A stretch of DNA of 10,746 nt, taken from positions 1 to 10,746 of the forward strand of contig CANGJN010000009.1 of NCBI GenBank assembly GCA_947454215.1. The letters run 5' to 3'. The first letter of the stretch is position 1, and every line of letters starts with the position of its first letter. Both the position numbers and the translations under genes were made by a program. Below the pieces are notes generated by a model, which saw only the letters and a program-made list of their open reading frames with translations, made no database searches and was not told where the DNA came from. This DNA is from Neisseriaceae bacterium (GTDB lineage Bacteria; Pseudomonadota; Gammaproteobacteria; Burkholderiales; UBA11063). Below are positions 1,684 through 10,640 of the stretch, one piece after another.

Positions 1684-3384
1684 TTATACAATAACACAAG
1701 TAGGAGAACCTGCAGGATCAATGTTTATCACACGATTTTGGTTTAAGTCCAATGTTGATTGGCATATAAAAGTTCCTTGCCATGTGGTATAACTTACGCT
1801 TAAACCAGTCACACCCTCTATGGGAGCGAGTGAAGGGTTGGAGTAAGTATTATACGTAGAACTTGTTTTTGGAGCTTGATAATTTAATGGGCCAACACTC
1901 GCCACACCATTTGCAATTAGTTTAATTGTAATACCAATAGTTGCACTATTGTTACTAATAGTTAAACTATAATTAGTCTGTGCAGGTGGAGTATATGAGT
2001 CAGTATATGCTGTAGTACCATTTGGTAAGTTTTTACCATTATTAGTCCAATCTACAACTGTAAAATTACTGTCATTGAAATTGTTTATAATATAATTATT
2101 GGTAAAAACTCCACTACATTGAGGTAGTGTTGCTGCTGGCATTGCTGTAGAACAGTCATAAGGATCAAAATTTCCTGCTGGAACTGTCGCATCTGGTAAA
2201 AAATTAGCATATAAACCAGTATTCGCTAAACCAGAAACTGGATTTAATAAACCGGAGGCAACATCAATCCCTCCTACAGCACGCCCATAATCACCAAGAC
2301 CAAAAGCAATTTTAGATAATTGTGGTTTTAATAGCAATAACCGTTGCATAAACTGATCTACTGAAAGTGTACCTGCTGCTTCTGGAACAGTTACTGGATA
2401 TGTGTTTTCAAAAAGTCCAGTTTTACCACCTCCAAATGTTGCACCCCAGAACTCATATGTTTCTAGGTTTATACGAGATACAGTAGATAAATTAGATATT
2501 CGAGTATAGTAATTCCATAAAGACCCAGCAAAACCTACAGCACTAGATATGCTAAGTTTATAAGGTGTTCCTTGAAAAGCAGTATCTATCGCTTGAATAA
2601 GTTGATAGTATTGTAAAGCCTGTGCATCATTAAAATAAAGTTCATAATTTAAATCTAATCCATTTAAATTATATTGTTTTAATAAAGCCATTGCAGTTGT
2701 AATAAATTGTTGGGTTGTTTGTTGATTTCCAATCAAATAAGCAAATGATTGATTACCTAAATCACTTCCACCTCCTATAGATAAGTATTTAGTGATATTC
2801 CTACCATTGTTATACTTAGAAAATGCTTCGAAATTACCAAAGTTTGCGGCAAATGGTTTACCTTGTGATTTATATTGATAGCTACAGGTAAGATTTGCAC
2901 CATTTTGACACCATGGATCATCTAATAATAAATCAGCCCATGGATCATTAAAATAAATAGTACCATCCTTTGCAATTTGAAGGAAAGAATAACCAACTGA
3001 ATCTATATATTGCATTTTATGATCAAAATCAAGATTAGTCTCTACTTTTCCGCCATTTTGCACATCTATAGCACCAGGTATAAAGTATGGGGTGCCTGTT
3101 ATTGCTCTGGCAGTAGTATAGATACCCCAGTTAGTCCAATATGTCATAAGATTACCAAGTGGATTTGCATCTTTTATTGCTTTGAACATAGAGTTTGTAG
3201 GATTTACAACAGGATCAACATCACCTGACATTTCCCATACAATAGTTTGACTAACTTGATTTTCTAATTGATACTGCTCAAATACTTTGGTATCTTGAGC
3301 CGATACATAAGATATAAATAGATTTTGTGCTTGGCACCAATAAGAGGTAAATAAAACCCCTGTAATTAAAAACTTATTTTTCAT
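1684..3384 (-). CDS. secreted GH18 chitinase with apparently circularly permuted catalytic domain
   Basis: This 566-residue exported protein belongs to glycoside hydrolase family 18, whose members cleave beta-1,4 bonds in chitin or related N-acetylglucosamine polymers. I chose the ATG at 3384 over an in-frame ATG at 3414 because AAGGAA precedes it by 6 bases and a Sec signal peptide then begins properly (residues 1-19, likely cleaved after Cys-Gln-Ala). GH18 landmarks: beta-1 NLMTYWTNWGIY at 78-89, beta-2 YSFLQIA at 132-138, SIGG at 202-205, catalytic strand NGLDLNYE at 241-248 (acid Glu248), beta-5 KLSIS at 276-280, beta-6 ETYE at 308-311, beta-7 GLGDYGRA at 362-369. The beta-8 signature QTIVWEMSGD, normally C-terminal, is at 46-55, before beta-1. 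Residues 471-566 form a Ser/Thr/Asn-rich, probably beta-sandwich tail with Cys540 and Cys563, of no family I recognise. Loss of the Asp two residues before Glu248 may weaken or alter activity. Monocistronic by its terminator. Confidence 0.85.
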   Translation of the reverse strand: MKNKFLITGVLFTSYWCQAQNLFISYVSAQDTKVFEQYQLENQVSQTIVWEMSGDVDPVVNPTNSMFKAIKDANPLGNLMTYWTNWGIYTTARAITGTPYFIPGAIDVQNGGKVETNLDFDHKMQYIDSVGYSFLQIAKDGTIYFNDPWADLLLDDPWCQNGANLTCSYQYKSQGKPFAANFGNFEAFSKYNNGRNITKYLSIGGGSDLGNQSFAYLIGNQQTTQQFITTAMALLKQYNLNGLDLNYELYFNDAQALQYYQLIQAIDTAFQGTPYKLSISSAVGFAGSLWNYYTRISNLSTVSRINLETYEFWGATFGGGKTGLFENTYPVTVPEAAGTLSVDQFMQRLLLLKPQLSKIAFGLGDYGRAVGGIDVASGLLNPVSGLANTGLYANFLPDATVPAGNFDPYDCSTAMPAATLPQCSGVFTNNYIINNFNDSNFTVVDWTNNGKNLPNGTTAYTDSYTPPAQTNYSLTISNNSATIGITIKLIANGVASVGPLNYQAPKTSSTYNTYSNPSLAPIEGVTGLSVSYTTWQGTFICQSTLDLNQNRVINIDPAGSPTCVIV

Positions 3385-3613: not shown

Positions 3614-4654
3614 TTAAAATGAAGCAGATTTAGGAAAGACATTTCCATCTTTAAATGAAACATACCCATTTATTATTGAACCCTTTTCTGCACCTCCATA
3701 GAGTTGATTTGGACCAATTATATTATCTAAACTCAATGTTGAATTAATAGAAGTAACACTAGTAGCGGAGAAATTCAATGCAGGAAAATAACCAGTATTA
3801 TATAATGTAAATTCTGAAAAATCATTATTAGAAATAATAATATTATTTATATTAAATACAGCCTCATTATTATTTCCAAAAAATATACCAATTGCCAAAC
3901 TAGAAGTTTTGGCACTTAAAATAAACTTATTATTAGTTATTACAAAATTATCTCCTGAAACAACTCTGATGGCATCAGCATTAGTAGAGGCTGTTGAAAT
4001 TTGATTGCCACTAATAGTTAATGTATTTCCACCATTTCCTACAATTCCTACTTGTGTTACCGTAGATCCAGTTGAGATTGCTACAGTATTACCAATAAAA
4101 TTACTATTTATAGTATTATTAAAAACTACGCTATCATCAGTAGAGGTATGTGTAACAACATTATTTAACAATGTCACACTAGAACTATTATTTATCAAAA
4201 CTGCACTTCCTGTACCCGACTTAATTATTTTAGTAGAACTTATTGAAATTTTATTAGAATTATTTAATACTATACCATTAGAACCAACACCACTTGATAT
4301 TATATTACTTGTATTTATAGTGACATCATTTACATTATTTCCACAAACTGCATCCTGATTGTCAGTAGATGAAATAAAGTTTGTATTAATAATTCTATCG
4401 CCACTAACCAGCATAACTCCACAGGTATTAGCTGTCGTATTGATCATTAATATATGTCCATTTCCATTAAGTGTTTGATTTTTAGATAGGTGGATAGGGT
4501 AGTTTATAATTATATCAGTATTTAAAGTTACATTATCTGTTTTCGTTAACTCCTCTAGTAATTCTTGTGAATTATTAACCTCAACTGCTGAAACATTGAA
4601 TATTAATGCTCCAGAACTTATTAATATGGATATAGATTGAAAAATATTTTTCAT
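3614..4654 (-). CDS. secreted right-handed parallel beta-helix protein
   Basis: This is a 346-residue exported protein. A Sec signal peptide spans residues 1-23, with a likely cut after Val-Ser-Ala. The mature part is Asn/Ser/Thr/Ile/Val-rich with coils of about 24-27 residues from about 60 to 285, each containing N-x-[IV]-x-[IVLF]-x-x-N-type strands and turns (for example NNSNKISISS at 131-140, NNSSSVTLLNN at 155-165, GNTLTISGNQI at 209-219, GDNFVITNNKF at 234-244). This is the pectate-lyase/PbH1 fold used by polysaccharide lyases, hydrolases, epimerases and adhesins. Cys78 and Cys104 fall one coil apart and could form a disulfide. I see no recognisable lyase catalytic Asp/Arg set, so enzymatic activity is not claimed. 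The start is well supported by AAGGAG 9 bases upstream. It lies upstream of the chitinase gene on the same strand, 229 bases away, so cotranscription is possible but not shown. Confidence 0.75.
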   Translation of the reverse strand: MKNIFQSISILISSGALIFNVSAVEVNNSQELLEELTKTDNVTLNTDIIINYPIHLSKNQTLNGNGHILMINTTANTCGVMLVSGDRIINTNFISSTDNQDAVCGNNVNDVTINTSNIISSGVGSNGIVLNNSNKISISSTKIIKSGTGSAVLINNSSSVTLLNNVVTHTSTDDSVVFNNTINSNFIGNTVAISTGSTVTQVGIVGNGGNTLTISGNQISTASTNADAIRVVSGDNFVITNNKFILSAKTSSLAIGIFFGNNNEAVFNINNIIISNNDFSEFTLYNTGYFPALNFSATSVTSINSTLSLDNIIGPNQLYGGAEKGSIINGYVSFKDGNVFPKSASF

Positions 4655-8246: not shown

Positions 8247-10640
8247 ATGTTAATATTTAAAAATTTATTTATCTGTTTATTTAGTGTAGTTAGTACAACT
8301 CATATTCTATCATTAAATGTAGATATATATGGAGAGCAGTCAATCAAGATTACAAGCATACGTCCAAGTTTCCAGCCAAATATTATAGATAGAATGAATT
8401 ATTTACTCGCTCACATTATAGAGATTCATCTTAATAAAAAGGATAAAACATCATCTACTATCTTAGCTCTTTATTATAATAAAAAAATTTTTATAAGCAC
8501 TCCATTGTTTGGAGATATTGCTAATATTAGTAAAATATGGTTTGAGATAGATAGTAAAAGAGTAGAATTAAACGGTATTGATAAATTACATATTCCAGTT
8601 AACACAGTTTTTATTAATTTAGAAGGGATACACAATGAAACTGATATTCATAAACTATTATACGAAAATTATCCGAATATTATAAAGATAATTAAAAGTT
8701 CAAAATTCAGTACTGCAACAAAGGATCCACAAGAAATGAGTGAGTTTTTTTATCCTGTAAATTCAGAGTTTTCTCAATTCTTTAATACTAAAACCTTTTC
8801 CGGAATAAAAATAAATGTTATTGATATAAGTAATTTGGCATCCAGTCAATACACTGATAGTTTCTATATTATTGGGAAAGTCAACAATATACTTACTTAT
8901 ACTAATTTAACTTATGTCCTACTAAATAATCAAATGTATTATTTCTCTTCCTTTGGTAAGGTTTATATCTTAGGAATTTTAAAAAACAATGTTTTTTCTC
9001 CTAGTGATATAGGATCAATTATTGTCTATTGTAATATTGCCACTTGTAGAATGATAGGTCAAATAGTTTACTTAAAAAATTATGAGGCTACCTATGAAAC
9101 AAATAACCATTTAAATATTAACTTACCTGACCATAAAGATAAAGATAAATTCCGCATTTCAGTATTTAAGGCAAATTTATATGCAGATGAAACTACTCAT
9201 GACATACAAACACCTATTTACAATAAATTTAATCATAAATCCCCTCCTGTAAATAAAGAAATATTAGACCTTAATTTAACTAGAATGAAGGCTCAAACTC
9301 ATGTTAAACAAGTACTATTGCCACAAACTTCGAAAGAAATACATTTACAACCTGATGAAGGATTAAGTAGTTTAGATATAAAAAGTAGAAAACGAACTAT
9401 AAATGGTCAAGAGTTATCAACTGCTAAAAGAAAAAAATTAGATCCAAAAGATGAAACTCAAGTTGATTTAATCAAAACCTTAATAACTGAAACTACTCAC
9501 TTAGAAACAAAAGATTCCAATCCAAGGAAACGACCACTTGGTACCAATGAATCACAATTAATTCATACAATAACATCCCAAGAACATTCTAAACCCATAG
9601 AAGAAGAAATTGGTCAAGATACTACTGCCAACTCTATCCCTTCAAATGACAGAAAAGAAATTAAGGAACTTACTGATAAACAATTGTTTGAAGATTGTTA
9701 TAGCACCATCAATTTATTCGACATTGGAGAAACTCAAAGTAAAACATCTGATAATAATAGTTTGATTCCTAATCTTATAAACCCCCAACCTAAGATAGAG
9801 GAAGACCAACCTAATGATAATGGAAAAAACACTCAACAAATTTCTGAACAAGATATAAAATTGATTGAGAAAGAAAAAAATGTGATATTAACATTTCTTC
9901 CAGATAGAGATATATACAAGGTTATTGTTGTAACAGGTATTGAAAAAACCGACTCTACGATAGATGTGGTGTTATTAGATACGGTTAAACCTGTCATTAT
10001 TGCCTTTAAATGTTCTAAAAATATAGTTAGACCGATACTAGAAACATCTGTTAGAAATAGTGAGTATTTAGCCACACCAATCAACCAAGGTAAAAACTTT
10101 ACTATTAAAAAAACCTTTTATAAATCAGAATACGATTCCTCTACCTTGCAAAATGAAACATATAAACCAGGTGGAATTTATCATACAACAGATGACAAAT
10201 ATTTTCAAGTTATTAACTATCCTAAACGTAGGGTTATACGCGAAATGTATCTTAAATCGGAAGATAATAAGGATCGGGTAACTTTTATCGATCAAGAAAA
10301 AGTACCAGAGAATGTACTTGTTCGTCTATTTGAGAATTACACTCTAGATAAAAAAACAATATCAACATTAAAGAAGCAACGCAGTAAAATAGTATTAACA
10401 GAAAGAACAATTCGTAATCATACAACTTACAAGGTAATTGCTTATCATATACTAAGGATGACCGCTGTTGATTTTATAAATGAAAAAGATCGCAATGATG
10501 GTATTTATTATACAAAAGATGATAAATATTTTGAAGTGAAGAATAAGGTTATTCATGAACTTAAATTTAAAGTTGAATCTAAATATTTTTCTCAGTATAA
10601 CTGGACTTTGGCCATTTTTTTAAAATTTAGGATGCCATAA
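8247..10640 (+). CDS. large exported protein of unknown family with bipartite NLS
   Basis: I do not recognise the family of this 797-residue protein. The N-terminus (residues 1-23) has a Lys and a hydrophobic core (LFICLFSVV), consistent with a Sec signal, though the cleavage site is unclear. Residues 24-285 alternate hydrophobic and polar residues and look beta-rich, with a Cys262/Cys267 pair. Residues about 290-545 form a polar linker rich in Lys, Glu, Asp, Thr, Gln and Asn, probably disordered. It contains Lys382-Arg383, ten residues, then KRKKLD (394-399), an exact bipartite nuclear localisation pattern, plus PRKRP at 426-430. Residues about 545-797 are again ordered-looking and hold a duplicated module: GGIYHTTDDKYFQV at 642-655 and DGIYYTKDDKYFEV at 751-764, each followed by a basic VI-[RH]-E segment. 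The ATG has only a weak AGG site about 8 bases upstream. The architecture suggests a secreted protein acting in a eukaryotic host; that function is inference. Confidence 0.75.
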   Translation: MLIFKNLFICLFSVVSTTHILSLNVDIYGEQSIKITSIRPSFQPNIIDRMNYLLAHIIEIHLNKKDKTSSTILALYYNKKIFISTPLFGDIANISKIWFEIDSKRVELNGIDKLHIPVNTVFINLEGIHNETDIHKLLYENYPNIIKIIKSSKFSTATKDPQEMSEFFYPVNSEFSQFFNTKTFSGIKINVIDISNLASSQYTDSFYIIGKVNNILTYTNLTYVLLNNQMYYFSSFGKVYILGILKNNVFSPSDIGSIIVYCNIATCRMIGQIVYLKNYEATYETNNHLNINLPDHKDKDKFRISVFKANLYADETTHDIQTPIYNKFNHKSPPVNKEILDLNLTRMKAQTHVKQVLLPQTSKEIHLQPDEGLSSLDIKSRKRTINGQELSTAKRKKLDPKDETQVDLIKTLITETTHLETKDSNPRKRPLGTNESQLIHTITSQEHSKPIEEEIGQDTTANSIPSNDRKEIKELTDKQLFEDCYSTINLFDIGETQSKTSDNNSLIPNLINPQPKIEEDQPNDNGKNTQQISEQDIKLIEKEKNVILTFLPDRDIYKVIVVTGIEKTDSTIDVVLLDTVKPVIIAFKCSKNIVRPILETSVRNSEYLATPINQGKNFTIKKTFYKSEYDSSTLQNETYKPGGIYHTTDDKYFQVINYPKRRVIREMYLKSEDNKDRVTFIDQEKVPENVLVRLFENYTLDKKTISTLKKQRSKIVLTERTIRNHTTYKVIAYHILRMTAVDFINEKDRNDGIYYTKDDKYFEVKNKVIHELKFKVESKYFSQYNWTLAIFLKFRMP
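9390..9437 (+). other. encoded bipartite nuclear localisation signal
   Basis: The codons for residues 382-397 of the 797-residue protein encode Lys-Arg, exactly ten residues, then Lys-Arg-Lys-Lys, the spacing of the classical nucleoplasmin-type signal read by importin alpha. The last block with Leu-Asp also resembles the monopartite c-Myc signal. It lies in a polar, probably exposed linker. Confidence 0.55.
10170..10538 (+). repeat. duplicated GIYxTxDDKYFxV module in the unknown protein
   Basis: Two copies encoded at 10170-10211 and 10497-10538 share 10 of 14 residues and lie 109 residues apart. Similarity continues loosely on both sides: a VI-[RH]-E-x-x-x-K segment follows each copy, and a TYKVI or IYKVI strand precedes the copies. 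The DNA of the two copies has diverged, so the duplication is old. Confidence 0.6.

Follow-up and report, generated by a model that had tools for sequence, protein, structure and literature searches.

Transaldolase and class I aldolase are related by circular permutation. In PMC2213659 this TIM-barrel pair exemplifies structure alignment that follows or departs from the sequence order. Among the glycoside hydrolases, natural circular permutation is described for GH13-type enzymes, i.e., the GH70 glucansucrases and GH13_19 MalS, the latter with a permuted order of whole domains (C-A-B-A-C), in PMC10223318. The locus described here appears to encode a likewise permuted glycoside hydrolase, but of a different family (GH18) from those in PMC10223318, and, in contrast to the transaldolase/class I aldolase pair, which contains no GH18 member, the swap is read here from the sequence, with relatives that are ca. 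40% identical. In canonical GH18 enzymes (Serratia ChiA and ChiB, Chitiniphilus ChiL, human chitotriosidase, and Coccidioides chitinase 1) the unit helix 7-strand 8-helix 8 comes last in the chain, whereas in the permuted proteins it comes first and the ends of the barrel lie in the insertion domain. No report of a circular permutation in GH18 was found in the literature searched, with subscription journals mostly outside its coverage, and none was found in the available parts of PMC10223318, PMC8250049, and PMC2213659.

The gene is located on the minus strand of the window, i.e., the whole stretch of 10,746 nucleotides that was analysed, at 1684..3384, running from an ATG at 3384, preceded by AAGGAA, to a stop codon at 1684-1686, and it encodes a protein of 566 aa whose features all lie on this strand. 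Residues 1-20 (MKNKFLITGVLFTSYWCQAQ; 3325..3384) read like a signal peptide. Directly behind them, residues 21-74 (3163..3324) represent the displaced C-terminal unit of a GH18 domain, as indicated by rotated profiles, AlphaFold2, BLASTP, and isolated units of relatives (see below); they contain the final insertion-domain strand at residues 22-26, helix 7 at 29-41, strand 8 at 46-50, and helix 8 at 66-73; the strand-8 signature WEMSGD occupies residues 50-55. After a short stretch the barrel starts in the ordinary way, its core from beta-1 (78-84) to beta-7 (359-371) covering residues 78-371 (2272..3153; delimited by Pfam, AlphaFold2, and VIA). The remaining insertion domain (residues 372-468; 1981..2271) follows up to the point where the permuted barrel now ends (NGTTAYTDSYTPP), and an accessory beta domain (residues 471-566; 1687..1974), for which no Pfam match was obtained, completes the protein. 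The first-pass annotation had interpreted the span 1993-3324, which corresponds to residues 21-464, as a circularly permuted GH18 barrel with residues 21-70 as the end of the domain. All landmarks that it named are present where it placed them and residues 21-70 indeed belong to the C-terminal unit, but the displaced segment (21-74) opens with the last insertion-domain strand and helix 7.

Pfam PF00704 matches residues 79-447 to positions 2-262 of its 317 positions (90.1 bits, cut-off 29.6), and the last 55 positions of the profile are absent on the C-terminal side of the protein; residues 76-460 comprise the barrel minus its C-terminal unit. The protein thus combines a GH18 profile match with a strand-8 signature, including the conserved Trp, that is present but N-terminal, and it departs from the canonical order of strands 1-8. 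This rotated strand order makes it a permuted variant of GH18. A second GH18 protein in the same genome (locus L001, 1381-2886; 501 aa) has the ordinary order with the usual strand-8 unit at its end. In the window itself, the gene directly upstream (3614-4654, minus strand) encodes a 346-aa protein with a signal-like start and a weak match, under the cut-off, to the right-handed beta-helix profile PF13229 (E 0.00037), and 8247-10640 (plus strand) encodes a 797-aa protein with a signal-like start and a charged middle but no Pfam or NCBIfam match. An Rfam search of the window gave no match.

A protein search with the window protein returned the protein itself and seven relatives, to which a genome scan added more. 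P0013, one of the relatives, was then used as the query and returned at least 103 proteins, P0013 among them (7997 candidates scored). Depending on whether the unit precedes or follows the catalytic motif, 125 proteins were divided into 90 permuted and 28 canonical ones, with six uncalled (P0008, P0105, P0107, P0108, P0110, and P0111) and P0123, which is a tandem fragment of eukaryote-like character, excluded as artefactual; 11 of the 90 permuted proteins as well as P0087 and P0122 were missed by the motif pattern and placed by hand. The 90 permuted records include a few near duplicates (e.g., the cores of P0010 and P0092 are identical). Classification by best domain score, which sorted 169 proteins into 98 permuted and 56 canonical ones with 15 left undecided, was dropped, as P0048 and P0103 were among the undecided and P0123 was assigned wrongly. 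Nine canonical-order sisters are of special relevance, i.e., P0087, P0088, P0091, P0093, and P0096, which are 39-43% identical to the permuted P0013, and P0112-P0115 (29-33%); L104, with 37% identity in the core, is also canonical. The sisters share stretches such as GNF with the permuted proteins but carry the unit at the C-terminus, and none of the nine has the accessory domain.

When searched in isolation, the C-terminal units of the nine sisters matched the N-terminus of all 90 permuted proteins at 25.8-55.5 bits (median 44.3). Behind the core, matches occurred in 14 of the 90 only (16.9-20.0 bits), stray matches inside the core in 42 (up to 21.6 bits), and in every one of the 90 the N-terminal match outscored that behind the core. 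BLASTP yielded a second match in swapped order over the unit of a sister for 89 of the 90 permuted proteins (all but P0097; 670 protein-sister pairs) vs none of 27 canonical controls, all of which covered the unit in order. For example, residues 21-66 of the window protein align with 466-510 of P0112 (48%, E 6e-8) and residues 99-466 with 79-441; P0074 aligns with P0096 over 81-484 to 26-376 (39%) and 21-74 to 403-457 (42%), and P0013 and P0087 are likewise swapped. Two blocks homologous to a relative thus span the domain jointly and in swapped order, as in a circular permutant. For 56 of the 90 permuted proteins, one or more of the long alignments continued in order across at least half of the sister's unit (78 pairs); we judge this to be over-extension into the accessory domain, because the isolated units score at most 20 bits there, no better than in the core.

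Profile rotation points in the same direction. A HMM of 62 canonical GH18 sequences was cut at each eighth column, and the rotated profile outscored the linear one for all 14 permuted proteins scanned, the gain at cut 304 amounting to 10-36 bits, a gain never reached in 300 shuffles of the N-terminal segment (14/14). For 11 of the 14 the peak fell at cuts 296-304, just ahead of FISYDD, in agreement with a breakpoint common to homologues; ties were obtained for P0001 (280-296), P0002 (288-296), and P0008 (304-328), the last a fragment without its N-terminus. The unrotated HMM was better for all nine canonical sisters, which were outside the HMM and form an independent control, and also for four canonical proteins in the scan, which belonged to it. 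The strand-8 profile matched the N-terminal part of all 14 proteins and scored zero or less after beta-7, where the isolated units also remained at noise level; no match to strand 8 follows the barrel of the window protein. The N-terminal unit of P0013, the sole unit run against PDB sequences, gave 67 distinct matches at E ≤ 5, at least eight of them below 0.01, and among the best 60 of these 67, 59 were GH18 chitinase-type chains matched at the corresponding unit (e.g., Serratia ChiB 373-415 and CHI3L1 299-334). Pfam recovered PF00704 from the N-terminal pieces by themselves in one of six cases. In canonical genes from the genus of the window, N-terminal positions of the permuted profile (18-89, 28-84, and 29-87) were matched at three places, each time downstream of the match to the core of the profile, and two of these matches extend past a stop codon.

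The genome from which the window derives is a fragmented draft (52% complete, 180 contigs), and the gene could thus have been a truncated or rearranged GH18 gene in one assembly, either an artefact or a pseudogene, with an incidental resemblance at its N-terminus. However, the identical order recurs in 90 protein records, which stem from several sources and include contigs of up to 1.76 Mb, and the N-terminal match is significant and never reached by shuffles, which renders such an explanation extremely improbable. The permutation proposed on first reading is supported by the isolated sister units, swapped-order BLAST, rotated profiles, the PDB search, and two AlphaFold2 models, and we consider it very probable that the gene belongs to a natural family of circular permutants of the GH18 barrel.

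The position of the cut can be read from a comparison with the sisters, in which an AYASKW-like strand is followed by a variable loop and FISY. The permuted barrels end just past the AYASKW-like strand (NGTTAY...) and start with the FISY strand, as anticipated by the first reading, in which the barrel stopped where FISY would normally continue. On this sequence comparison the cut is in a hairpin of the insertion domain, because the displaced segment starts with the last insertion-domain strand and helix 7; the place of this hairpin in the fold is assumed from ChiA and ChiB. Both AlphaFold2 models (pTM 0.72 and 0.81) predict a strand where beta-8 is expected near the N-terminus, and the core without the N-terminal unit aligns to chitotriosidase 22-323 and 22-332 with sequential aligners. 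Foldseek TM-scores are modest for the window model (0.54 by target length in the best row), in which pLDDT is <50 in parts of the insertion domain. The chain would fold as an ordinary closed eight-stranded barrel, in which Trp50 of the N-terminal unit would be the conserved Trp, presumably with a role in the sugar site, and Glu248 the acid.

Alternatively, strand 8 could be filled in trans by the N-terminal unit of another chain, in an obligate domain-swapped dimer. Of the 85 chains (out of 90) in which the distance was measured, 84 have 24-35 residues (median 27), including helix 8, between strand 1 and the preceding strand-8 motif, a spacing that fits closure in cis, and the AlphaFold2 models, which are of monomers only, are of fair confidence. 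The exception, P0103 (Vibrio sp. 16, 926 aa), has 268 residues at this place and demonstrates that a long stretch of chain can separate the two pieces; a large insert is therefore tolerated where the old ends are joined. Taken together, a swapped dimer seems very unlikely, and closure of the permuted barrel within one chain remains the preferred reading.

In a quick tree built from the core (beta-1 to beta-7), the permuted proteins fell within one subfamily (branch value 98, 101 rows); a first tree had omitted P0014 through a length rule. When other GH18 proteins served as outgroup, the canonical P0113, L104, then P0087/P0091 and P0096/P0088/P0093 fell outside a clade (branch value 95) made up of all 90 permuted rows and the canonical P0112, P0114, P0115, and L106. 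The trees favour a canonical ancestry and one origin of the permutation but do not prove the latter, because in the free trees some canonical rows, few in number, group with permuted ones. The permutation may thus have arisen more than once, or have been partly reversed, inside one GH18 subfamily, since the free quick trees need two to three state changes. However, one change is enough in two reduced sets (two are needed in another), and holding the permuted rows together was not rejected and gave a better tree, by 3.5 log-likelihood units for an earlier set of 14 (p-AU 0.628) and by 16.3 for the 90 rows (p-AU 0.783). The breakpoint agrees where it was scanned and the accessory domain is common to 83 of the 90. 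We therefore regard repeated or reversed permutation as unlikely and a single origin as the favoured course. It has been suggested in the first-pass annotation that the gene arose perhaps via tandem duplication, which would be a conceivable route; the intermediate form, which would carry the unit at the N- as well as the C-terminus, was looked for among the 125 proteins and none was seen.

Matches that extend through the N-terminal unit were found in 2 of 23 genomes of the genus of the window and, at E ≤ 1e-20, in 2 of 369 sampled genomes of its class, the genome of the window included. In the family of the Legionellaceae MAG that carries L007 such matches occurred in at least 4 of 143 genomes, the others being partial (30 loci read). 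The same 715-aa ORF occurs in one neighbour genome of the genus and in a Burkholderiales record. No relative was found on viral contigs, and the plasmids, searched with the neighbouring genes, gave only matches to the rsmA region.

In GH18 enzymes the middle Asp of DxDxE and the Asp of MTYD are catalytic helpers. DxDxE is intact in 78 of the 90 permuted proteins and MTYD in 75, and most members of the family therefore look catalytic and are probably secreted chitinases. The window protein lacks the catalytic DxDxE of GH18, as residues 244-248 (2641..2655) read DLNYE, with Asn for the middle Asp, and residues 308-311 (2452..2463) read ETYE in place of the usual MTYD. Because of these unusual residues its activity is uncertain, and the window copy probably has weak or altered activity or merely binds its substrate. 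DLNYE, accompanied by ETYE, is, among the 90 permuted proteins, restricted to the window protein and its 68% relative P0002, in line with a chitin-binding pseudoenzyme rather than a chitinase. However, the acid Glu248, the first Asp, Tyr310, SIGG, and Trp50 are all kept (residue roles being those that we assume from work on ChiB), and the changes could shift the pH optimum or slow the rate rather than abolish activity. In our view, the pseudoenzyme has close to an even chance of being the correct interpretation for this copy. P0103 has Gly in place of the first Asp of DxDxE. The motif also deviates (ELDYE, ELAYQ, DVAYE, etc.) in P0033, P0036, P0041, P0042, P0044, P0050, and P0099, with MTYD changed in six of these seven, and these proteins are possible further non-catalytic branches.

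The accessory domain follows the barrel in 83 of the 90 permuted proteins vs none of the nine sisters, counts that are not independent because the proteins are related. P0011, which derives from an environmental MAG, lacks the accessory domain while its DxDxE is intact. The domain is also present on two proteins of the genus that Pfam identifies as GH19 (domain matches at E 1.1e-6 and 1.4e-4; one at 4.8e-7 in another search) and on another type of GH18 (L105). This occurrence with three chitinase types suggests that the accessory domain binds chitin. The distant copies in the genus of the window are carried by the GH19 chitinases L092 (1462-3213) and L098 (1453-3180), and the permuted L010 (2-2146), of the same genus, has two accessory domains in tandem (517-610 and 616-714). 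In the permuted proteins the accessory domain, probably chitin-binding, would be carried by the new C-terminal end in the insertion domain, which presumably borders the substrate cleft as one of its walls.

In profile annotation these proteins come out as GH18 without its end and they may, therefore, be taken for truncated ones. To our knowledge, natural circular permutations within a catalytic barrel have rarely been seen together with close unpermuted relatives. Here, permuted and canonical forms coexist at ca. 40% identity in one subfamily, and this therefore allows direct tests of how strand order relates to folding, of how the position of the termini relates to activity, and of a binding domain on the cleft wall. 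Tentatively, and with somewhat less than an even chance of being right in all its parts, we propose that this is the first natural circular permutation in GH18, that it defines a gamma- and betaproteobacterial family of single origin, and that the cut in the hairpin created a C-terminus that lets a chitin-binding domain mount on the cleft wall rather than at another place of the barrel. If true, a closed loop would have become a C-terminus, and the permutation would be adaptive rather than neutral.
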